64,000 bases of DNA from Myxococcaceae bacterium (GTDB taxonomy: Bacteria > Myxococcota > Myxococcia > Myxococcales > Myxococcaceae), in assembly GCA_017881265.1 (NCBI GenBank), contig JADGRA010000080.1, forward strand, positions 1-64,000, given 5' to 3'. Positions 26,631 through 51,132 of the stretch are shown here, in pieces. The translations under genes and the position numbers were made by a program. A model generated the notes under the pieces. It worked only from the letters and a program-made list of their open reading frames with translations, was not told where the DNA came from and ran no database searches. Every line of letters starts with the position of its first letter. Positions within the stretch are counted from its first letter, which is position 1.

Positions 26631-29600
26631 TTAGTAGTCGCGAGACCAGACCGCGTCCAGCGAGCCGGCGTTGGCATCGCCATATTCGAGCTGCAGGCTC
26701 CACCGTCGCAGGATGCGGTACTCTACCCGGATGGCATTGGCATTCTGGTAGCGGAAGGCATCGGCGTTAATGCGCGCTTGGTAGCCGATGTAGATGTCGT
26801 CGGTGAGGTACTTGCCCGCCTCCAGCCGCGTCTGGTTGACGCCCCGCTCGTCGTTGTTCACCTCCACCGACAGCACGTCGATGGGCAAGGCCCCCCCCAC
26901 CGCCTTCTTGAGTTCAGTGGCAGCCCAGGAACCCAGGATGGACGCGCCGGCTTCCCCACCGCCGACGCTGGTGCTGCTGCCGAGGCTGCTCTGCACCAGC
27001 TGCGTCCTTCCGGTGGCCAGCAGGGTGTAGATTTCCGACTCCGACATGGGCGGGTCGCTCGACGGCGTCACCTTCACCCGGTCGGCCCCCCCCGAGAAGT
27101 GCATGTACACCTTGGCCTGGCTGAGGACGCTGCTGTAGACGCCCGTCACGTCCAGCTGCGCCTTGGCCGGCGCTCCGTCCAGGCGCACCCGCCCGCCGGG
27201 CTGCACCTCGAAGCGGCGTCCCCAGACGTCGCCGCGGCCCCGCAGGATGTACACCTCGCCCACCACGCGGGTCTGGCCTCCCAGGGCGACCTGGAAGGGG
27301 TCCGACAGGCCGAGCTCCAGCGCGATGTCCTTGCCGCGCATCCAGAGCGGCTGGGGGGCCTGCAGAGACACGCGGAGGAAGCTGGGCCCGGCCGCGGTCT
27401 CGGGCTCCGGGGCAGCCGTTCCGGCCAGCCGCGGGCCCAGCGCCACGGCGCGGCGTGCCTGGCTCGCGTCCACGGGCTTGCCGTTGCGGGTCAGGACGAC
27501 GTCCGGCGGGCTGCTCAAGCCTTGCAAGTCCTTGCGCCGGGCCTCCGGCAGCTGGAACTCCACGTCCTCCAGGCGGACGTGCTGCAAGTCCACCTCCCAC
27601 GGCCGTGCGGTCCCGGAGAGGTCCGCCTTCAGCGTGGCGATGCACCACAGCTGGTCGTCGAAGACGACGGGTAGCCCTTGGGTGCTCAGTGCCCCGGAGA
27701 TGGTGAATCCCTCGGCCGCACGCTCTCCCACAAGCCGCAGGGAGAAGGAGCCGCCCTGCACCCTGGCCGAGAGCTCCTCGATGGCGAAGCGCTGGTTGCT
27801 TGCTTCGGCGCGCAGCTGGATGTGCTGGTACAGGCCGAAGCCGATGACGCCCACTTCGCCGTCCGTCCAGGCCAGCGCCCCGCGCAGCGCGGGGTGGCCC
27901 AGCGTGCCGTCGGCCTCTCCGTCGACTTGCAGCTTGCCACTGATGCTGCGCATCCACGGGAAGAGGCTGGCCACGAAGTCCGGCTCGAAGCGCACCGAGT
28001 GAAGCGTCGCCCGCAGCGGAGCCTCCTCCAGCCGCAGCCCGCGGCGGAGGCCGGGCAGCGACAGGTCGAGGTGCACCGTCCCGTCCAGATGCAGCGTCCC
28101 TCCCGTCTCCGACTGCAGCTGCATGTCCACCGTCTCCTCGCCAGAGGCATAGCGGGCGTGCGCGGTGCCTTCGAAGTGGGCCCCGTCGCTCGGACCGAGG
28201 CCGGTGGCCTTCACCGTCGCCGTGCCGATGGGGGCCAGCAGCGTCCCGTGCCCCTCAAAGCGCACCGACAGCTGTCCGTCGAGGAGCCGGCGGTCCCGGC
28301 GCAGCCGGTTGACGTTGAGTGGCAAGTCCCGGAAGTCCAAGGGGCCCAGTTCCCCCTCCAGCGCCACGGCGGCGTGGGCGAGTTCCTCCGGGGACGTGCT
28401 GGTCAAAAGCTGGACGAGTGGCGCCCAGACTTCGAGGTGGGCCGAGCCCTTCCCCCCGTCCGGCGCGAGAACGGCCAAGGTGGCCTTCACCGTGTCGTTC
28501 GCTTCCACCGTCAGCGTGGCGTCCACCACGGGCCACGGCGGCACCAGCAGCTGCTGCAGCTGCACCTGCGCCTTCCCGCGTGGGTCGCCCAGCGTGCCGG
28601 TGACGGAAAGTTGCGCCGCGACCACGCCCTGGACGGCCGGCAACACCAGGCCGGCCTGGTGCAGCGGCTGAAGCCGCAGGCCCGCGGCGTGGACGTCCGC
28701 TTGAAGGGGCACCGTCCGCCACCCGGCCCAGCTGAGGCGGCGGGCCAGCAGTTGGGCGGTGGTGGACAGAAGCGAGGCCTGGACGTCCAGACTGCCCTGC
28801 AGGCCCTTGCCCTGCAAGGTGAGCGCGACGGGGGTGTCCTCGTCCCCGTCCAGGCGCAGCGTCGCCTCGGCCGTTGGAAGGCCCCGGGCGCGCACGTCCG
28901 AGGCGCGCACCGACACGTGCACGGCCGGCCCGTCGACAAACCCGTCGACGCGCGCCTGCACGGCGGCGTGCGCGCTGACTGCCGCCGTGCCCTCCGGGCA
29001 GCCGGCGGGCAGCAACCCGGCCCGGGCGAGCTGGCACAGGGCCATAGCGACGTCGACGTCCTCCGCCTGCAGGCGCAGGGCGAGCGGCTGGTGCACGCGT
29101 CGGGACAGCGCCAGCTCCGGCCCCTGGACGTCCAGCGACAGGGAAGTGCCCAGCCCGGCCAGCTGTCCGCTGAGACTGAGGTGGCCCCCGCGCCGGCTTC
29201 CTTCCAGCTGGGCGCTGAGGCCCCGCAGCCCAGAGAAGCCGCCGTCCGTCAGCTGGGCCGAAAGGGTGACGTCCGGGTGGCCTTCCGCGCCGTGCACTTG
29301 CGCGGCGACGTCCAACAGTCCAGCCAGCTGGGCCGAGGCGGGCACCAGCAGCGCCGGCAGGTGGGCCAGTTCCAGGTGCGCCACCTCCAGCGAGCCTTGC
29401 ACCTGGTGCGCACTCGAGCGCGCGCTGAGGGCGATGGACTGGCTGCCCGAGGTGAGTTCCAGCCGCTCCGTCTGGAGCCGGCCCGCCTGCAAGCGCACCG
29501 CGGCCGGCGCCGCCAGGGCAAACGCCTCCTCCGGAAAGCGCAGCCGCAGGGTGTCGAGCAGCAGTCCCCGTCCGTCGCCGTCCGCCGTGCCGGCCGCGTC

Positions 29601-31232
29601 CAGTTGGACCGGCCCGGCGGCCGTCGCACGCAGCTGCAGCGCACGCGCCTCGCTGTGGAGGTTGGCATGGACGTCCCGCAGCGCGCGGCCGGCCAGCGTC
29701 AGTGTTCCGGCGGTAACGGTGGCGTTGGAGTCCAGGGGCCGCCACACGTCCGGAAGGTGCAGCGACACGTCCAGGTCCTCGGCCCCGACGGGGCCCACCT
29801 GCAGCCGGGCAAAGTGGCCCTCGGCTTCGACTGCGGGGTGCGCCGGCCGTCCCGACACCTCCACGCGCAGGGCGCCCTGGCCGGACAGGGGGGGAAGTCC
29901 GCCAACGACGTCCCCGAAGGTGTCCGTCAGTGCGGCCAGCCGGCTCACCTCCAGGTGCAGCGTGGCCTGCAGCGCGCGCGCCGTCGCGTGCCCGCTGCCC
30001 TCCACCAACAGGCCCGGCAGCACCGCCCGCAGCGAGGGCACCTCGACGCGGCCCCCTTCCAGCCGCACCGCGGCCTGGACCGGGCCCACCTCCGTGCCGC
30101 GCACCACGCTGTGGGGAACGTCCAGCGTCAGCTGCCCGCGGGCCGAGGCCCAGGACGTGCCGCGCACCGTCCCCTGCAGACGCAAGGCGAAGTCGCTCTG
30201 TGGCCCGAGGCCGAGGAGCTCGGCCAGGTCCACGTGCTTCACGTCGAGACGCAGCGCGCGGGCCGAAGTATTCTCCACGTCAACGTCCGTCCGCAGCTCG
30301 AGCCGGCCCCGCCCGGCGGCCGCCTGCAGCGCGACGGCGTAGCCCCCGGTGCCGGCGTGTCGTGCTTCACCGCTTGCCGAAAGCGGCACGCGCAGTGGCC
30401 AGCCCGGCACCAGCGAACGTCCAAAGCTTGGCGAGACGTCCAGCGACAGGTGCCCGTCCGACAGGACGTCGCCCGCTGCCCGTGCGTCCGCCACCAGGCT
30501 GCTGCCGGCGGCGTGCACGTCCACCTCGGCCGACAGGCTGCTGCCCCGCCGCTCGCCTTGCAGCGCGATTGTGAGGGGCCCCGGGGTCGGCTCATTCACC
30601 GCCCCCGTGCCCTGGGCTTGTACCTGGAAGTCCTGCGAGCGCAAGCCGTAGCGGCCGCTGCCCGACAGCCCGAGGGCCTGCAACACCAAGGGCGGTCCCT
30701 CGGGCGTGTGCACCTGCAGCCGGCCCTCCTGGACGTCGAAGCGGTGGACGAGGAAGGTGAGAGGCGGCGGGCGTCCGGCCGCGTCCGGCGGCCCCGGTTC
30801 CCGGGCAGCAAAGGTGCGGTGCAGGTTACTGCCCTCGTCGTCCAGCGCCACCGACAGCTCGGGCCGGACGAGGAGGAGGGTGCGCGCCTCGATGTGGCCC
30901 TGCAGAAGCGCGGCCCACTGCAGCTCCAGCTCCACCCGCTCGATGAAGGCCACCCGCGTCCCTTCCGGGTCGAGCAGCGTCGCCCCCCGGACGAGGATGT
31001 GGTTTCCGTGGATGGTGGCACCCTCGGCCTCCACCCGGCCGGCGATGGCGTCGTTGGCCGCGGCGAGGCCCACCCGCAGAAGCCACGCTGTCCCGCTCGG
31101 CGTCTGCAGGTAGGCCCGGGCGCCGAGGAGGGCGAGCAGGACGAGGAGGGCCAGGCCGCAGAGGAGGAGCGCGGCGCGGACGAGGTGCCGGGCGGGCGTC
31201 GGCACGGGCGGAGGTGCAGCGGGGGCCGTCAT
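26631..31232 (-). CDS. tamB: TamB-family (DUF490) envelope-spanning protein
   Basis: A 1533-residue AsmA-like bridge protein. A single N-terminal signal anchor (about 20-43, [16 protein letters not shown]) is followed by a very long beta-rich region of amphipathic repeats (residues about 60-1150), and a C-terminal TamB domain (about 1170-1533) with [26 protein letters not shown]-type strands and a final [15 protein letters not shown]. TamB proteins bridge inner and outer membrane and are thought to move phospholipids and/or assist outer-membrane protein insertion. The TamA-like Omp85 gene ends one base upstream of its start, the standard pairing. Uniquely, ExbB-ExbD-TonB follow directly. Confidence 0.92.
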
Positions 31233-39994: not shown

Positions 39995-40089
39995 AGCGGT
40001 CGAATTTTTCACATTGATTGTGTGGAAGCGTTCAAGGAGTATCCCCCGCCTCGGACGGTCTAGATTGACCCAGTTGACGGGTGGCACAC

Positions 40090-41481
40090 ATGGTTGAGCC
40101 GTTGCGCTTGCGGCCAGGCAGGCGGTCCGTCGGGACACAGGCCGCTGAGCCCTCCAGGGCCGGACGGGGGGAGGCGCCGGCAGAACAAGCCAGTGTCCGT
40201 CGCGCTCCGTGGCTGGCCTTCAACGCCGCCGCGCTGCCGGCGCCCCTCGGCGAGGCCTCCCCGGCCTTCGGCGCCAACCACTTTCTCCTCGGCGCTAACC
40301 TTCCCTGGATTCGCTACGGGCTGGACTACGGCTGCTCGACGGCCACGCCGGCGGGCGGGCTGCACGCCGACGCGAATGCCGCAGGCCTCCTGGACGTGGC
40401 CATGGGCCGTCTGCGGCGCGACGGCGTCGAGGCGGCGCGCGTCTTTGTGTTTGGTGACGCACGTGCCGGCGTCCGCTTCGCCGAGGACGGGACGCCCGAA
40501 GGCCTGGACGGCGCGGTGTTTCCGGACGTGGACGTGCTGTTGGCGACGGCCGAGCGCCACCGGATTGGCCTGTACCTCGTCCTCTTCGATGCGGGCCTGG
40601 TGGCACCGCCGTCCCTGCAGGACGGCGTGCGCTGCGGTGGCCACGCGGATGTGCTGGCCGAGCCGGCCAAGCGGCAGGCGCTGCTGGAGCGCGTGCTGGA
40701 ACCGCTGCTGCGGCGCTACCGCGGCCACCCCGCCATTGACGGATGGGACCTCTTCGACGAGCCGGAGTGCGCCACGGCTGGCATGGCGTGCCCGCACCCG
40801 GCGCGCTCCGCCTCCGCCCGGCGCTGGGGCCAGCTCACCGGTGTCCTCTCCGCAGGGCTGCGGGCCGTCGGCCTCGGCGGCAGTAGCCTGCCCGCGCCTG
40901 CGTTGGTGGAGGTCGCGGCCATGCGCAGCTTCCTCGGGGCCGCCGTCCAGGCCGTGCGCCAGCACAGCGGGGCGCTGGCCACGGTGGGCCTGGCCAGCAC
41001 CGCCAACCTCTCGCTGCTGCAGGGACTGGAACTGGACTTCTACCAGGCGCACTGGTGGGAGCCGTATGGCGACGCGGCGCTGCGCCGCGCGGCCGCGGAC
41101 TTCCGGCTGGACCGCCCGCTGGTGCTGGGTGCCTTCCCGGCGACGATGGCCAGCAAGAGCGTGAAGACGGTGCTCGACACCGCCCGCTGCGCTGGCTACG
41201 GCGGGGCGCTGGTGTGGAGTCTGCGCGCGGTGGACGGTCGCGGGGGCGAGGACGGACAGCTTTCCCAGTGGGTGCGCAACCACCAGGGCCAGCTGTACCG
41301 GCGTCCGCTGCGCGTCAAGGCGGCGGCCGACGTCCCTCCGCTGCGTCCGGCGGAGCCGCTTGCACCCGCGCTGAGCGTCCGCGCGGCCCCTCCGTCGGAC
41401 AGCGCCGAGGAAGAGGAGCCCGAGAGCGCGCGGGGTGAGGCGGACGCGCGGGCCCCGGGCCTGGCAGCGGCGCCGGCCTGA
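40090..41481 (+). CDS. Glycoside-hydrolase clan A (GH5-like) protein, possibly inactive
   Basis: A 463-residue protein with a TIM-barrel-like GH5 core: ARVFVFGDAR early, then IDGWDLFDEPE carrying the expected acid/base Glu (Glu224), and HWWEPYGDAA. The strand-7 position usually reads LGEFG with the nucleophile Glu; here it is RPLVLGAFPAT, an Ala. So catalysis is doubtful. No signal peptide is seen and the C-terminal 60 residues are acidic/Pro-rich. ATG 40090 follows a TAGATT hexamer at 40061. It could be a glycan-binding pseudoenzyme. Other GH families with a non-canonical nucleophile remain possible. Confidence 0.7.
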   Translation: MVEPLRLRPGRRSVGTQAAEPSRAGRGEAPAEQASVRRAPWLAFNAAALPAPLGEASPAFGANHFLLGANLPWIRYGLDYGCSTATPAGGLHADANAAGLLDVAMGRLRRDGVEAARVFVFGDARAGVRFAEDGTPEGLDGAVFPDVDVLLATAERHRIGLYLVLFDAGLVAPPSLQDGVRCGGHADVLAEPAKRQALLERVLEPLLRRYRGHPAIDGWDLFDEPECATAGMACPHPARSASARRWGQLTGVLSAGLRAVGLGGSSLPAPALVEVAAMRSFLGAAVQAVRQHSGALATVGLASTANLSLLQGLELDFYQAHWWEPYGDAALRRAAADFRLDRPLVLGAFPATMASKSVKTVLDTARCAGYGGALVWSLRAVDGRGGEDGQLSQWVRNHQGQLYRRPLRVKAAADVPPLRPAEPLAPALSVRAAPPSDSAEEEEPESARGEADARAPGLAAAPA

Positions 41482-43010: not shown

Positions 43011-46000
43011 TCACGTCTCGGCGGAGTCCAGCCACAGCTGGTCAAAGCGCACGGTGGGTGGCGTCTGGTGCAGCCGCAGTCCCTGCACCTTGGGGTTGGC
43101 CGCCGCGTAGCTTCGGTCGTGGTACAGCGGGATGAGGGGGCAGTCCTCGCCCACCAGCCGCTCGGCGCTGCGGTACAGCTCCTGGCGGCGGGCGGGGTCG
43201 ATGGACACGCGCGCTTCGTTCGTCAGCCGGTCGAGGTCCGCGTTCTGGTAGCCCAGGCCGTACACCGTCTGGGCGCGGGAGTTGAGGAGGAAGTGCAGGA
43301 AGTTGTCGGCATCCGGGTAGTCAGCAATCCACCCGGCGCGGAAGATGGAGAGCCGCCCATCATGGGCGCGGGACCAGAAGTCGCTCGACGCCAGTTCCAC
43401 GTGCACCAGCTCCGCCAGCCCGGCGGTCACCAGCGGGCCGAACAGCACCTGGTCCTCGGCCTCGGTGCTGCGCCCGGGCGGGTTGTACAGGGTGAGGCGG
43501 AGCAGCGGCACGCCGGCGTCCCGCAACAGCGCGCGGGAGCGCGCCAGGTCGGGCCGGGCCGGCATCCCAAACTCGCCTTCCAGAAGGCCGGGCGGGGTGA
43601 GGGTGGTGGCCACCGTGGCGCCCGGGTGGAAGCGTTCCACCAGGGAGTGCAGGTCAAGCCCGGCGCGCACCGCCTGGCGCACGCGCACGTCGTCGAAGGG
43701 CGGCAGGCGCACGTGAAAGGCGAGAAAGAAGGACGAGGGCTGGCTGCCAGCGATGACGGTCTGGCCGCTCAGCTGCGCGTCGCGCACGTGCTCGGCGTAC
43801 AGGCCACTCACCACGTCCACCTTGCCGGCCACCAGGCCGGCGATGGCCTCCGGGCGGTCGCGGAAGAAGTGGAAGGCCAGTTGGTCGAGCATCGGCCGCT
43901 CCGGTCGGAAGTAGGACGGGTTGCGTTCCAGCACCACGCCGCCCGCGTCCAGGCGCGTCGCGCGGTAAGGCCCGGCGCCCACCAGCCGGCCGTGGCTGTC
44001 CTTGCGCGCCACCAGGGTGGCCGGCAACGTCACCAGGTGGAGGAAGAAGGCCTTGGGTTCCTCCAGGCGAATCTCCAGCGTCAATTCGTCCAGCACCTCG
44101 AAGCCGCTGACGTGCTTGGCCTGGCCGGCAAGGTAGGCGCGGGCGCCCTCCACTTCCTTGAAAATCCACTGGTCGGGGGAGTCCACCGCCGGGTCGAGCA
44201 GCCGCTCGAAGTGGTGCTTCACCTCCAGCGCCCGCAAGGGGGCACCGTCGTGAAATACCAGGCGCGGACGCAGGTAGAAGCGGTAGCGCTGTGCACCGGG
44301 CGCCGCCTCCCAGCGCTCGGCCAGGTCCGGCAGCACCGCGCCGTCCTCCTGGCGGCAGAGTCCAGCGTAGAGGCTGGCGGCAATCTCAATCAGCTGGTTG
44401 TCGAGTGTGAAGAGCGGGTCGAGCGAGCGGGTCGACTCGAACATCTCCGACTGATGGATGCCCACCGAGAGGGTGCCGCCGCGCCGCGGTTCCGGAAGCC
44501 GGAAGCGGAACACCTCCGCCTCCAGCCCGGAGGCCTCGCGCGACAGCTGGTCCACCGTGCGCGACAGCCCGTCCCCAATGCGGATGACGGTGCGGGCGTC
44601 GTCGCGCACCTGGTTCACATCCTCGCCGATGGCGGTGTCCCCCCGCGTCAGCACGTCGTGGGCGTGGCGAATCTCGTCGATGGCGGCGGTGAGGCGCTGC
44701 ACCGCGCCGGAGAGGTCCCGCCCGGTGCGGGCCTGCCCCTGCGCCTTGGCCGAGGCGCCCTGGGCCAGCCGCGCCATCTCCTGCGTCTGGCGCACCAGTT
44801 CCCGCCCGGTGAGCGCTTGCTCGGCGGCGGCGCGGGTGACTTCCACCACCCGCTGCGCCACCCGCTCGCTGGCCTGGACGACGTGCGCGCCTTGCTTCTC
44901 CAGCTGGGCCGTCTCGGCCACGGTGGACTCCACCGCGGAGAAGGTGCGCTTGGTGATGGTGCGAATCTCCTTCAGCGCGCTGGCGGCGCGGTCCCCGAGC
45001 GCCACGCCGATGCTGGCCTGGGCCCGCACGTCCTTGACGTAGGCCACGGCAGCGTCCACCTGGCCGCGAATCTGCTGCACCATGGAGGAAATCTCCCGGG
45101 TGCTACGGGCCGTGCGTTCGGACAGCCCGCGGACTTCCTCGGCCACCACGCCGAAGGCGCGGCCATTTTCTCCGGCCTGGGCGGCGATGATGCCGGCATT
45201 CAGGGCGAGCAGGTTGGTCTGGTCGGCCACGTCCTGGATGACGTCGACAATCCGGCGGATTTCCATGGAGCGCGTGCCCAGCGAATCGACAATCTCCGCC
45301 GCCTTCCGCACCGTCTCCTCGACGCGGTACATTCCCTTCACCGAGTCGTTCACCAACGCCTCGCCGCGCTCGGCGGTGGCGGTGACTTCCCGGGCCAGGT
45401 CGCCCGTCTCGTTGGCGCGCCGGCGCACCGAGTCGATGCCGCCCTCCACCGCGGAGACGAAGGCCGCCGCCTCCCCGGCAAACCGGGCCAGCACATCCCC
45501 GCTGGCTGCCACCGCGGACAGCCCCTCGCTCATCACCTGCACCCGCTCGGTGGTGCGGTGGGCGAAGCTGTCCAGCGTCCCGAGCGCGCTCGCCACCTGT
45601 TCAATGCGCTCCGTCATCTCCGCCAGCGAGCGCGTGGTTTCCTCGGCGAAGCTTTCCAGCTGCCCCACCCGCCGGCCGGCGGCGTCGAGGCTGCCGCTCA
45701 TGCTTTCCACGCTGCCCTGGCTACGTTCCACCGCCGCCCCCTGGCGGCGGGCGGCCTCCAGCAGGGTGCGGGCCTGGCTGCCCACGTCACGGCACGTCCG
45801 GTAGACGTTGCCCGTCACCCGCTGCACCTGAAACAGCGCCCGGCGCAGCGAGAGGATGAGGCGTCGCAAGTCCTCCTGCCCCTCCAGCCCCTGCACCTGC
45901 GGGGTGAGGTCGCCCTGGGCCAACTGCGCGATGAGGGCCCGACGTCGGGAGGAGCTCTGCGACAGCCAGCGGTACCAGGTGAACCACGCCGAGCCGGTGA

Positions 46001-46205
46001 AGGTGGCCACCGAAAGGGCCAGCAGCCACAGCCACCAGCCCAGCCGGAAGCCGTGTCCGGCCAGCAGGCTGAGCGCCGTGCCGCTGACTGCGCCGGAGGC
46101 CAGGCCGCCGAGCACGCCGAAGACGAAAAGGAAGCGCTTGCCGAACAAGAGAGGTGCAGAGACTCTACTCCCGAGATGCGCCGGGCCCCGCAAGGTGTGC
46201 TCCAC
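43011..46205 (-). CDS. Methyl-accepting chemotaxis protein fused to a C-terminal SBP_bac_5 (peptide-binding) domain
   Basis: About 1064 residues. Two transmembrane segments near the N terminus (about 25-50 and 57-78), then a short HAMP-like stretch, then a long MCP coiled coil with the tip hairpin GENGRAFGVVAEEVRGLSERTARSTREISSM-type sequence (normally GFAVVAxEVRxLAERS). A complete periplasmic peptide-binding-like domain follows (about residues 575-1060): RGGTLSVGIHQSE, SLDPLFTLDNQ, and LERNPSYFRPERP are typical SBP_bac_5 blocks. No membrane segment lies between, so the binding domain should sit in the cytoplasm on this topology. Start uncertain: GTG 46205 here; the frame is open to an ATG at 46259 inside the divergent gene, and TTG starts exist downstream. 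No conserved CheR/CheB methylation motif was checked. Confidence 0.8.
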   Translation of the reverse strand: MEHTLRGPAHLGSRVSAPLLFGKRFLFVFGVLGGLASGAVSGTALSLLAGHGFRLGWWLWLLALSVATFTGSAWFTWYRWLSQSSSRRRALIAQLAQGDLTPQVQGLEGQEDLRRLILSLRRALFQVQRVTGNVYRTCRDVGSQARTLLEAARRQGAAVERSQGSVESMSGSLDAAGRRVGQLESFAEETTRSLAEMTERIEQVASALGTLDSFAHRTTERVQVMSEGLSAVAASGDVLARFAGEAAAFVSAVEGGIDSVRRRANETGDLAREVTATAERGEALVNDSVKGMYRVEETVRKAAEIVDSLGTRSMEIRRIVDVIQDVADQTNLLALNAGIIAAQAGENGRAFGVVAEEVRGLSERTARSTREISSMVQQIRGQVDAAVAYVKDVRAQASIGVALGDRAASALKEIRTITKRTFSAVESTVAETAQLEKQGAHVVQASERVAQRVVEVTRAAAEQALTGRELVRQTQEMARLAQGASAKAQGQARTGRDLSGAVQRLTAAIDEIRHAHDVLTRGDTAIGEDVNQVRDDARTVIRIGDGLSRTVDQLSREASGLEAEVFRFRLPEPRRGGTLSVGIHQSEMFESTRSLDPLFTLDNQLIEIAASLYAGLCRQEDGAVLPDLAERWEAAPGAQRYRFYLRPRLVFHDGAPLRALEVKHHFERLLDPAVDSPDQWIFKEVEGARAYLAGQAKHVSGFEVLDELTLEIRLEEPKAFFLHLVTLPATLVARKDSHGRLVGAGPYRATRLDAGGVVLERNPSYFRPERPMLDQLAFHFFRDRPEAIAGLVAGKVDVVSGLYAEHVRDAQLSGQTVIAGSQPSSFFLAFHVRLPPFDDVRVRQAVRAGLDLHSLVERFHPGATVATTLTPPGLLEGEFGMPARPDLARSRALLRDAGVPLLRLTLYNPPGRSTEAEDQVLFGPLVTAGLAELVHVELASSDFWSRAHDGRLSIFRAGWIADYPDADNFLHFLLNSRAQTVYGLGYQNADLDRLTNEARVSIDPARRQELYRSAERLVGEDCPLIPLYHDRSYAAANPKVQGLRLHQTPPTVRFDQLWLDSAET

Positions 46206-46216
46206 TGCGCCGCTGC

Positions 46217-47143
46217 ATGCTCGACGCACTTTTCCTCGCGGCGGTGCTACTCGTCGCACCCCCGGAGCGAACCTCCTACCTCTTCACACTCGAGGGCCTG
46301 CCGGCTGGCCAGGTGACGCTGGAACGCAGCGCCGACGGGACGTCCTTCACCTACCGCAGCGAGCACGTCTTCGGCCGCGGCCCGGCCCTGCGCAGCGTGG
46401 AGGCGCGCACCCTCACCCTGGATGAGGCGGGGCGGGTGGCTGGCGCCACCGCCACGCCGGTGTCCCTCTGGCTATGGACGCTTCATGTGCCCAGCTGCTT
46501 GGAGGTGATGGACGAGCGCACCGGGCGCACCGGGCAGGCCTGCTCCAACACCGTCAGCCGCGAGGAGTTGGAGGGAATTGCGCTGGACGAGTCCTTCCAC
46601 GCGACGTACCAGGACGGCGTCCTGGACGTGCTGGAGATGGGCCCGGCCCGCTTCGCCCGCGTCCGCGACGCCCCGGCGCTGGATGGGGCCCGGGGGCTGT
46701 GGGCGCAGGGACTCCGCGTGCCGGCTGGCCGCGGAGAATTGCTTCTCGAGCCGCCATTGCCCCTGGCCCACCCGCCGGCCGCGCCCTCCTCCCGGGGGCG
46801 CGCCTGGGCCGTGCGACTGCTGTCGGACTTCGGCGCCGCGCCGGCGAAGGAAACCTGCCTCGAATCAGCCCAGCGCCTGCTGGCCTACCTGGAGGAGCGC
46901 GGGGGCCACGGCGTGCTGGTGCTGGGGCTGCTGCTGGACGGCGGGCGGGCCTGGCCGCATGCCTGGGTGCGCGCCGAGGGCCCGTACAGCGAGGCGGTGG
47001 ACCTGGACCCGGCCTGGGGCCGGCTGGTGGTGCCCCCTGGCTACCTGGCGGTGGAGACGGTGGCGGCGGGCGGGCACGGCCTGGTGGCGGGGCAGGCCTA
47101 CCTGGAACTGGCCTCCGGCAAGCGGCGGTTGGTGCGCCGCTGA
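46217..47143 (+). CDS. Exported transglutaminase-like protein
   Basis: A 308-residue secreted protein (signal peptide about 1-14, MLDALFLAAVLLVA). The C-terminal part shows the transglutaminase-like Cys-His-Asp order: Cys214 in ETCLESAQRL, His248 in AWPHAWVRAEG, and Asp264 in AVDLDPAWGR, the layout of bacterial transglutaminase-core proteins. The N-terminal half is beta-rich and unrecognised. It may be a protease or amidase/crosslinker of envelope proteins. Divergent from the MCP-like gene and ending 27 nt before the acyl-CoA dehydrogenase gene's end. Confidence 0.65.
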   Translation: MLDALFLAAVLLVAPPERTSYLFTLEGLPAGQVTLERSADGTSFTYRSEHVFGRGPALRSVEARTLTLDEAGRVAGATATPVSLWLWTLHVPSCLEVMDERTGRTGQACSNTVSREELEGIALDESFHATYQDGVLDVLEMGPARFARVRDAPALDGARGLWAQGLRVPAGRGELLLEPPLPLAHPPAAPSSRGRAWAVRLLSDFGAAPAKETCLESAQRLLAYLEERGGHGVLVLGLLLDGGRAWPHAWVRAEGPYSEAVDLDPAWGRLVVPPGYLAVETVAAGGHGLVAGQAYLELASGKRRLVRR

Positions 47144-49043: not shown

Positions 49044-49844
49044 CTACGCCGAGCCGAGAAAGCTCGACAGCTGCTCGGTGACGAAGCCCGGGTTGTCGAT
49101 GGGCGACAGGTGCCCGGCCTTGGGCACGCGCACCAGCGTCGCGCGGGCGATGGTCCGCGCAATGGCTTCCGACTTGGCCGGCACCGTGGCGGTGTCCTCC
49201 TCGCCCACCATCACCAGCGTCGGGACCCGGATGCGGACGAGCTCCTCCTGGACACCCTTTCTGTCCAGCACGCCGTTGACGGCGCGGACGGCGCCGATGC
49301 GGTCCATGGCCACAAAGCGGTCCCGGACGGCGCGGAGGTCGGCGGCCCGCGCCGGGTTGGCCCGCACGCTGGCGCCGTGCATGATTTTCATGACCGGCCC
49401 GACCACCAGGCGCGGGCCGAGCCAGCGTTCGACGAAGGTGAGCGTCCGGTAGCGGGGCAGGTTCTCCTCGGGCTCCGCGTCGGCGGAGGTGTCGAGCAGC
49501 ACCAGCGAGCGCACCAGCTCCGGGTAGCGCGCGGCCAGCCGCATGCCGACGAAGCCGCCCATCGACAGCCCGACGAAGTGCGCCGGCTGCACGCCCAAGT
49601 CCCGGATGAGGGCCGCGGCATCCTCGCACAGGGTCTCCATGTCGTAGCCCGAGGCGGTCACCTCGCTCTGGCCCTGGCCGCGATGGTCATAGGAGATGCA
49701 GCGAAAGCGGCCGCGCAACGACGGCACCTGGGCGTCCCACATCCGGCAGCTGTAGAGCAGGCCATGGGCGAAGAGGACGGTTGGCCCGTTGCCGCCGGTG
49801 TCCTCCACGTACAGCCGGACGCCGTTGACGCTTCGCTGCGGCAC
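49044..49844 (-). CDS. Alpha/beta-hydrolase
   Basis: A 266-residue alpha/beta-hydrolase. The nucleophile serine is in FVGLSMGGFVG, the acid in VGEEDTATV, and the histidine in KAGHLSPIDNP. The oxyanion/HG motif is FAHGLLYS. Likely an esterase or ring-cleavage hydrolase on a small ester/thioester. GTG start, overlapping the AstA stop by 1 nt, so translationally coupled. Confidence 0.9.
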   Translation of the reverse strand: MPQRSVNGVRLYVEDTGGNGPTVLFAHGLLYSCRMWDAQVPSLRGRFRCISYDHRGQGQSEVTASGYDMETLCEDAAALIRDLGVQPAHFVGLSMGGFVGMRLAARYPELVRSLVLLDTSADAEPEENLPRYRTLTFVERWLGPRLVVGPVMKIMHGASVRANPARAADLRAVRDRFVAMDRIGAVRAVNGVLDRKGVQEELVRIRVPTLVMVGEEDTATVPAKSEAIARTIARATLVRVPKAGHLSPIDNPGFVTEQLSSFLGSA

Positions 49845-50878
49845 TAGAGCGGCTCGAAGGGGATGGCGCCCACCCGGGCCCCGGTGGTGACGCCCAACAG
49901 CTCGCGAGCGAGCGGCGGAAGGTAGATGACTTGGTCGTCGAGGCGGGCTTGGGTGCGGACCGCGCGGAAGCGGTTTCTCGCCGAGTCGCGGTCCACGCCG
50001 ACCAGCATCACCTCGGCCACCTCGTCCCCGAGCGGCTCCGCCGCCACCCGGGCGGTGCGGAACTGCCGCACCAGGAGAATGTCCTGGGTGCGCGCTTCAA
50101 AGTGGGGGCCCCCGTCGAAGGGGTCGACCCGCTCCACGTAGCGGAAGCCGATGCGCTCGAGCATGTGCTGCACGCCGCGCGTCTGCGTCCCCACCTCCCC
50201 CACCACCTTCTGCGTCCGCTCGGGGAAAAGGGACACGTAGATGTCCGAGGAGGGAAACAACTCCTTGATGAATTCCTTGTTCTGGCGGCTCAGCCGGTCG
50301 GCTTCGGTGTAGGGCAGGCCGGTGAATTTCTTCCCCACCGCCTCCCACAGAAGGCTGCGCCCGTCGGGCATCAGGGGGGGCATCAGCTCGGCCAGCACCC
50401 GCTCGCGAAACAGCGCCCGGTGCATGGCCAGGAAGAGGAAGCGGACGTAGGACAGCTGCTTGCCAGGCTTCTCCGGTCCGGAGCGGTGGGGCGGGTCCAC
50501 CACCAGGCCGCCGATTTCGGTCGGCCCCGCGTAGTTGTAGGCGATGGACAGCACCTTGTGCCGGAAGTGCCGGTCCAGGCTGGCCGAGTAGTGCTCGCGC
50601 TCGCTCACCTCATAGTAGGTGTGCGGGGCCTCCTTGGTGCCGTGCTGGGCGATGACCAGGCTGGTGCCCACCACCGCCTCGCTGGTCGCCTTCTCCAGGA
50701 CGAAGAGGTACTCGCGCTCGAAGGGGTCCCGCAGCTTGCCGGCGAAGCTGCGCACCGAGGTGTCGATTAAGTGCTCGAGCGTCTCCTCGTCGTTGGGGAG
50801 GTTGACGGTGTTAAGCACCGCCGCCAGGCGCTTGAGGCTGGGCAGGTCCGCCCTCTGGACGTCGCGCAAGAGGTACAT
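49844..50878 (-). CDS. astA: Arginine N-succinyltransferase
   Basis: A 344-residue AstA-type acyltransferase, the exact length of the E. coli enzyme. It transfers succinyl from succinyl-CoA to the alpha-amino group of arginine. Signatures: YLLRDVQRADLPSLKRLA at the start, IGGLVVDPPHR, and IGFRYVERVDPFDGGPHFEA. No other ast genes (astB/C/D/E) adjoin; instead a hydrolase and an acyl-CoA dehydrogenase follow. The ORF continues upstream to 50932, but ATG 50878 matches the family. Confidence 0.92.
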   Translation of the reverse strand: MYLLRDVQRADLPSLKRLAAVLNTVNLPNDEETLEHLIDTSVRSFAGKLRDPFEREYLFVLEKATSEAVVGTSLVIAQHGTKEAPHTYYEVSEREHYSASLDRHFRHKVLSIAYNYAGPTEIGGLVVDPPHRSGPEKPGKQLSYVRFLFLAMHRALFRERVLAELMPPLMPDGRSLLWEAVGKKFTGLPYTEADRLSRQNKEFIKELFPSSDIYVSLFPERTQKVVGEVGTQTRGVQHMLERIGFRYVERVDPFDGGPHFEARTQDILLVRQFRTARVAAEPLGDEVAEVMLVGVDRDSARNRFRAVRTQARLDDQVIYLPPLARELLGVTTGARVGAIPFEPL

Positions 50879-51132
50879 GGTGGTGGGGGCGCCTGGGCGG
50901 AGCCCGTCCAACCTACCCCAGACGTGAAGCACGTCCCAAGCGCCGGCCCGCCCCGACGGCGAGGGTAGGGTTGCGCCATTCCGCGTCTATCGCTGACGGG
51001 ACACGGAAAACCCCTCCGCGGAATGCGGGCGGCGTCGGCCCCCCCCAAGGGGCGTGCAGGCAGTCGAGCGTCGGGCGCGCGAGGGCGGTATCGGCGGGGG
51101 CGTCGTCCCCACCCCCGAGGAGGTCTTGCCCC

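Follow-up and report, generated by a model that had tools for sequence, protein, structure and literature searches.

A conserved myxobacterial chemoreceptor with a C-terminal OppA-type binding domain predicted to lie in the cytoplasm

The mcpK locus and its distribution

The window, that is, the whole stretch of DNA analysed, comprises 64,000 nucleotides of contig JADGRA010000080.1 from a bacterium of the Myxococcaceae (assembly GCA_017881265.1). On its minus strand, the frame 43011-46259 is stop-free throughout and holds a chemoreceptor (MCP) signalling domain and an SBP_bac_5 solute-binding (SBP) domain in one frame. Because orthologues begin with MG.KRYLF at the column of a TTG codon at 46148, this TTG is a likelier start than the GTG at 46205 chosen in the preliminary description. 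From the TTG the receptor is ~1045 aa long; residue numbers given here refer to the longest frame (to 46259) and not to the TTG-start protein. Pfam finds MCPsignal at residues 287-469 (E 9e-35) and SBP_bac_5 at residues 642-995 (E 7.6e-58). The features of the locus are as follows.

43011..46148 (-), gene for the McpK-type MCP-SBP_5 receptor, TTG start by homology
46077..46133 (-), membrane helix 1, residues ~43-61, from hydropathy in 31 orthologues and an AlphaFold helix
45981..46043 (-), membrane helix 2, residues ~73-93, with an Arg-rich, predicted cytoplasmic flank behind it, from hydropathy and charge pattern
45810..45974 (-), HAMP-like stretch, QLAQGDLT...DLRRLILSLRRAL, from sequence and alignment, without a Pfam call here
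44853..45401 (-), MCPsignal domain, Pfam PF00015
45015..45287 (-), signalling tip region, ADQTNLLALNAGIIAAQAGENGRAF, from alignments, the best conserved part of the protein
44478..44504 (-), junction F586-R-L-P...G594-G, where the end of the MCP arm joins the mature SBP N-terminus
43023..44480 (-), SBP_bac_5 (OppA-type) domain, from Pfam, alignment with solved SBPs, AlphaFold and Foldseek, predicted to be cytoplasmic
43320..43322 (-), Asp980, in GWIADYPDADNF, aligned with OppA Asp419, the anchor of the ligand alpha-amino group
46217..47143 (+), divergent transglutaminase-like gene, its product starting with a hydrophobic, signal-like segment, found beside mcpK in most family members
49844..50932 (-), arginine/ornithine N-succinyltransferase-like gene (astA), a conserved member of the mcpK neighbourhood

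The receptor is an orthologue of Myxococcus xanthus McpK (MXAN_6456), matched by description and length. It shares with the McpK orthologue group the transmembrane hairpin, the order MCP then SBP_5, the length of ~1045 aa and the conserved locus. Table 1 of Moine et al. 2014 (PMC3945109) gives M. xanthus McpK as an orphan of 1048 aa with MCP at 246-463, a 'Bacterial extracellular solute-binding proteins domain' and 3 TMHMM helices, and McpK is the only one of the 21 M. xanthus MCPs tabulated there with a solute-binding domain. The same source uses length class (44H) to assign McpK to DifA and its Dif system, and does not say where the binding domain is located. Orthologues measure 1048 aa in six loci and 1040-1058 aa in most others, so that the M. 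xanthus protein resembles many of them in length as well as in domain order; the window receptor differs slightly in length (~1045 aa) and comes from a smaller genome, which encodes 3 MCPs but neither CheR nor CheB. We found no functional study of M. xanthus McpK in the open literature. The P. aeruginosa receptor called McpK is unrelated and shares the name only.

Among 195 genomes of the phylum, mcpK is present in about 89 of the 96 from the window's family, in some as contig fragments. Beyond the family it occurs in G036 and G043, and also in G163 and, fragmented, in G164, the last two from another family of the class. Among 60 relatives searched at the protein level, most family genomes have full-length matches of 49-71% identity, and two sister families have matches of 39-49%. 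In Acidobacteriota, a query with one such protein (L026) matched across both halves in 29 of 297 genomes; all five matches examined carry both Pfam domains, and most of these fusions have an N-terminal hydrophobic pair. The same domain order thus recurs across most of the family and in Acidobacteriota. Four genomes of one genus (G103, G104, G105 and G106) have two mcpK copies each, every copy ~58-61% identical to the window protein. In the Acidobacteriota genome G319, the fusion lies in two overlapping frames that break elsewhere than at the junction.

In most family loci mcpK lies between two pairs of genes, the transglutaminase-like gene with astA and rlmN with an ECF sigma gene. The divergent partner had been described as an exported transglutaminase-like protein; the gene is real and its product begins with a signal-like segment, but its Pfam score of 22.5 bits falls below the 26-bit cut-off. 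The link with astA is a weak hint of arginine or amino-acid metabolism. The che genes sought among the neighbours did not turn up: neither che nor opp genes were found within flanks of 6-8 kb, where contigs allow. Elsewhere in the window, a TamB-domain protein of 1533 aa is encoded at 26631-31232 (-), and a frame of 466 aa at 40081-41481 (+) has no Pfam match but is retained in the neighbourhood of mcpK by the two closest relatives.

Membrane topology and the binding domain

The receptor and its relatives have only two conserved hydrophobic segments, both near the N-terminus, as judged by two hydropathy scales in 31 orthologues and the Acidobacteriota protein L026. No window after helix 2 qualifies consistently as a membrane helix in the same set. 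The two helices are joined by a loop of ~11 residues; therefore the receptor has no extracellular sensor domain at all, and the usual MCP ligand domain between two membrane helices is missing. The mean number of Lys and Arg residues is 2.7 before the helices, 0.33 between them and 4.8 after them, a positive-inside pattern. Given the two N-terminal helices, this charge pattern and the lack of a later helix, the N-terminus, the coil and the SBP domain are all predicted to be cytoplasmic. These results bear out the preliminary description in its two membrane segments and in the absence of any crossing between the signalling and binding domains, and they support its suggestion that the binding domain would be cytoplasmic. 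The full-length AlphaFold model has pLDDT of ~50-65 and lower in the coil and served for the helix limits only.

The SBP domain is complete, because solved OppA-type SBPs align over residues 608-1061. The AlphaFold model of residues 590-1082 has a mean pLDDT of 92.4, and Foldseek places it in the OppA family, with the best overlay on open MppA (TM 0.89) and TM ~0.67-0.69 to liganded OppA; the lower values are expected, as the model is in the open form. The complete fold and the amine-anchor Asp are thus common to this domain and the OppA/MppA-type SBPs of SBP family 5. In contrast to these SBPs, it has no signal peptide or lipobox ahead of it in the junction alignments, is fused to a coil and has no permease genes nearby; the family is represented here by its fold, with neither the export signal nor the ABC transporter partner.

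In OppA structures, Asp419 holds the amino group of the peptide. Its equivalent is kept in 12/13 McpK rows and 18/18 Acidobacteriota rows, and that of Trp416 in all rows of both sets (13/13 and 18/18). The Arg413 equivalent is kept in 12/13 McpK rows. At the positions that in OppA serve the far end of the peptide, the residues have changed: His371 is replaced by Thr and Lys307 by His, and Trp397 is lost. A peptide ligand is not secure because these far-end residues are replaced, and a ligand bearing a free amine is plausible from the retained Asp and Arg413. Both halves of the receptor are under purifying selection, with dN/dS of 0.09-0.22 for the SBP half and 0.01-0.20 for the MCP half in six pairs.

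The coil, its junction and an intracellular SBP lineage

The mature start of the SBP, P-x-x-GG-x-L, comes directly after the end of the MCP arm, and the junction is a coil of fixed length without a hydrophobic stretch. The distance between the tip Asn and the F-x-L-P Phe is exactly 237 residues in 31/31 McpK and 26/26 Acidobacteriota fusions measured, although the MCP parts of the latter are only ~15-31% identical to that of the window protein. Unfused McpJ-type receptors end 240 residues past the tip Asn and have a Phe at 237 (e.g. ...AEVQRFKV followed by the stop). Therefore, the SBP was added at the exact natural end of an MCP of the long class, replacing the last residues of the ordinary 240-residue arm. 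The constancy of the arm since that addition is the best evidence in the sequences for a signal of some kind passing from the SBP through the coil.

At the tip, the Glu and Arg of the EAARAGE motif (E385 and R388 of Tsr) are not kept; nearly all McpK orthologues have II..Q.GE, with G for Q in one. This distinctive tip was considered as a mark of non-chemotaxis signalling and rejected: an McpJ-type paralogue carries the same change, so the McpK tip represents a known subtype. This paralogue, at L129:7524-9575 of the same genome, resembles McpK in its tip (IIAAQAGEHG) and in the 240-residue arm that runs to its C-terminus. It differs in its 683 aa, HAMP domain, longer N-terminal part and lack of an SBP domain.

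A tree of 49 rows places the fused SBP domains in a single clade (UFBoot 99 / SH-aLRT 96) against 23 exported SBPs. The exported set includes Acidobacteriota and Myxococcota proteins with signal-like N-termini and E. coli OppA; the free SBPs were sampled by similarity, so that a closer exported relative may be missed. Two quick trees agree on the fused group. The clade also holds the SBP domains of Acidobacteriota kinase and DNA-binding AAA_16 proteins (L041, L199, L201 and L203), which have a Pkinase or Trans_reg_C domain followed by AAA_16-SBP_5-SBP_5 and are apparently cytoplasmic and soluble. Compared with McpK, these proteins have a kinase or DNA-binding output, two SBP copies and ~1800-2000 aa. 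The transcription factors SgrR and DsvR likewise contain SBP_bac_5 in a cytoplasmic signalling protein (PMC13060122), but with an N-terminal HTH output where McpK has the MCP. Pfam detects no HTH in the window receptor and the SgrR model matches it partially only; E. coli SgrR itself falls outside the fused-SBP clade on a very long branch.

In a tree of the MCP parts, built to test for a single fusion event, long branches meet and the alternatives do not separate. An independent fusion in Acidobacteriota is disfavoured; the identical junction and distance, together with the one SBP clade, argue for common origin or transfer. We give about even chances to a broader proposal, in which one SBP_5 lineage left the periplasm long ago to become a general cytoplasmic sensor module, was fused at an invariant register with the chemoreceptor coils of Myxococcota and Acidobacteriota as well as with kinase or DNA-binding AAA_16 regulators, and monitors imported or recycled peptides. 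If so, bacteria would track internal peptides with the same fold that they use to capture outside ones.

Proposed mode of action, alternatives and signalling partner

We consider it probable that McpK is an orphan receptor tethered to the membrane, whose ligand is cytoplasmic and probably a peptide-like molecule with an amine. The helical hairpin would hold the protein on the inner face of the membrane, and the two-lobed OppA-type sensor at the C-terminal end of the coil would sample the cytoplasm. Its ligands would probably be peptide-like or amino-acid-like, present after import or from turnover. Ligand binding may close the two lobes and pull on the end of the second arm of the coil, and the invariant arm length would allow this change to be relayed to the tip, the site of CheW and CheA. 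The sequences show the domain architecture, the topology as far as sequence rules give it, the conservation, the completeness of the fold, the retained amine-anchor Asp and the fixed register; ligand binding, the ligand class, kinase coupling and a Che8-type partner are what we infer. The occurrence of this build in most of its relatives, which are predatory soil bacteria, and in a second phylum probably means that it is a real receptor type sensing something inside the cell.

SBPs are regarded as proteins that capture their ligands outside the cytoplasm, and chemoreceptors as sensing mostly what is outside the cell. A conserved receptor class with an inward-facing capture domain would make the nutrients inside the cell a further input of chemosensory arrays. 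The architecture itself is not new. The conservation of the design and the place of the binding domain in an intracellular SBP lineage were previously unrecognised; new here are the near-universality in the family, the occurrence in Acidobacteriota, the 237-residue register, the SBP clade, the fit to McpJ-type receptors and the lack of CheR and CheB. These results provide a ligand handle on one uncharacterised M. xanthus receptor. With its fixed coil length, the receptor is also a clean model in which to ask how an MCP coil can be driven by a clamshell domain at its C-terminal end.

The SBP domain could instead have moved past small-ligand binding and act beneath the membrane as a site where, for example, an ABC importer or some other protein docks or clusters, and report the contact to the coil. 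The SBP fold does bind membrane permeases, several OppA pocket residues are replaced here, and in 5/6 pairs the rate of evolution is somewhat higher in the SBP half than in the MCP half. This role is nevertheless unlikely, as both phyla retain the amine-anchor Asp, the preceding Trp and the entire two-lobe fold, and no importer genes lie nearby. It is far less probable still that an additional or alternative membrane segment carries the SBP into the periplasm and that the receptor senses outside ligands in the usual manner. The unusual topology raised in the preliminary description has no backing beyond the 3 TMHMM helices in the published table for M. xanthus McpK (PMC3945109), which our hydropathy scans did not reproduce; neither the region after helix 2 in 31 orthologues nor the fixed-length coil of the junction offers such a segment, and sister SBP domains reside in DNA-binding and kinase proteins. 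The chance that the fusion is an assembly or annotation artefact is negligible. In one genome (G137, locus L140) the reading frame of mcpK changes precisely where the MCP meets the SBP, the sole such case noticed in the phylum and either a sequencing error or a young pseudogene. A frameshift splitting the domains, named beforehand as one way the picture of one fused protein could fail, is absent from the window gene, and dozens of independent assemblies from two phyla carry full-length orthologues of the same order in one frame. The preliminary description of a signalling coil, tip included, fused to a complete SBP_bac_5 domain is confirmed by Pfam and by the alignment with solved SBPs.

A cytoplasmic sensor is compatible with more than one kinase partner. 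The window's own genome (G000, 95.7% complete) has three MCPs, two CheA and five CheW-domain matches, and CheA and CheW are encoded in two che clusters elsewhere in the genome. The cluster on C11 (MCP of 412 aa, CheW, CheY, CheA) has the order and sizes of dif and its own short DifA-type MCP. The cluster on C2 comprises CheY (124 aa), CheA, CheW (192 aa), CheW (154 aa) and a response regulator. It matches che8 of M. xanthus, tabulated as CheY8b (124 aa), CheA8, CheW8b (188 aa) and CheW8a (174 aa) with no own MCP in the published tables (PMC3945109), and it too lacks an MCP. With the DifA-type MCP serving dif, the McpJ-type receptor and McpK are the sole receptors left for the che8-like kinase. 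By parsimony, which is not proof, we tentatively assign McpK to a Che8-type kinase. That McpK works with DifA in the Dif pathway, in line with their shared published class 44H (PMC3945109) and the dif-like cluster in this genome, is possible but doubtful: three DifA-type receptors end 172 residues past the tip, against 237-240 in McpK and the McpJ-type, their tip is IEAARAGE where both of the others have IIAAQAGE, and the che8-like cluster has no MCP of its own. The arm length of McpK fits McpJ-type receptors and not DifA as published, which puts the published pathway assignment in question. Co-occurrence of McpK with Dif or Che8-like CheA in 195 genomes did not discriminate, both CheA types being widespread.

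CheR and CheB domains are absent from the window's own genome at 95.7% completeness, where positive controls were detected; therefore, adaptation by methylation appears unavailable in this genome. As a separate observation, one Acidobacteriota subgroup of the fusions (L194-L198) has a degenerate MCP tip (e.g. NLLALNATIFSHNIDERPQDF) with an intact SBP domain, and these proteins may have lost kinase control.
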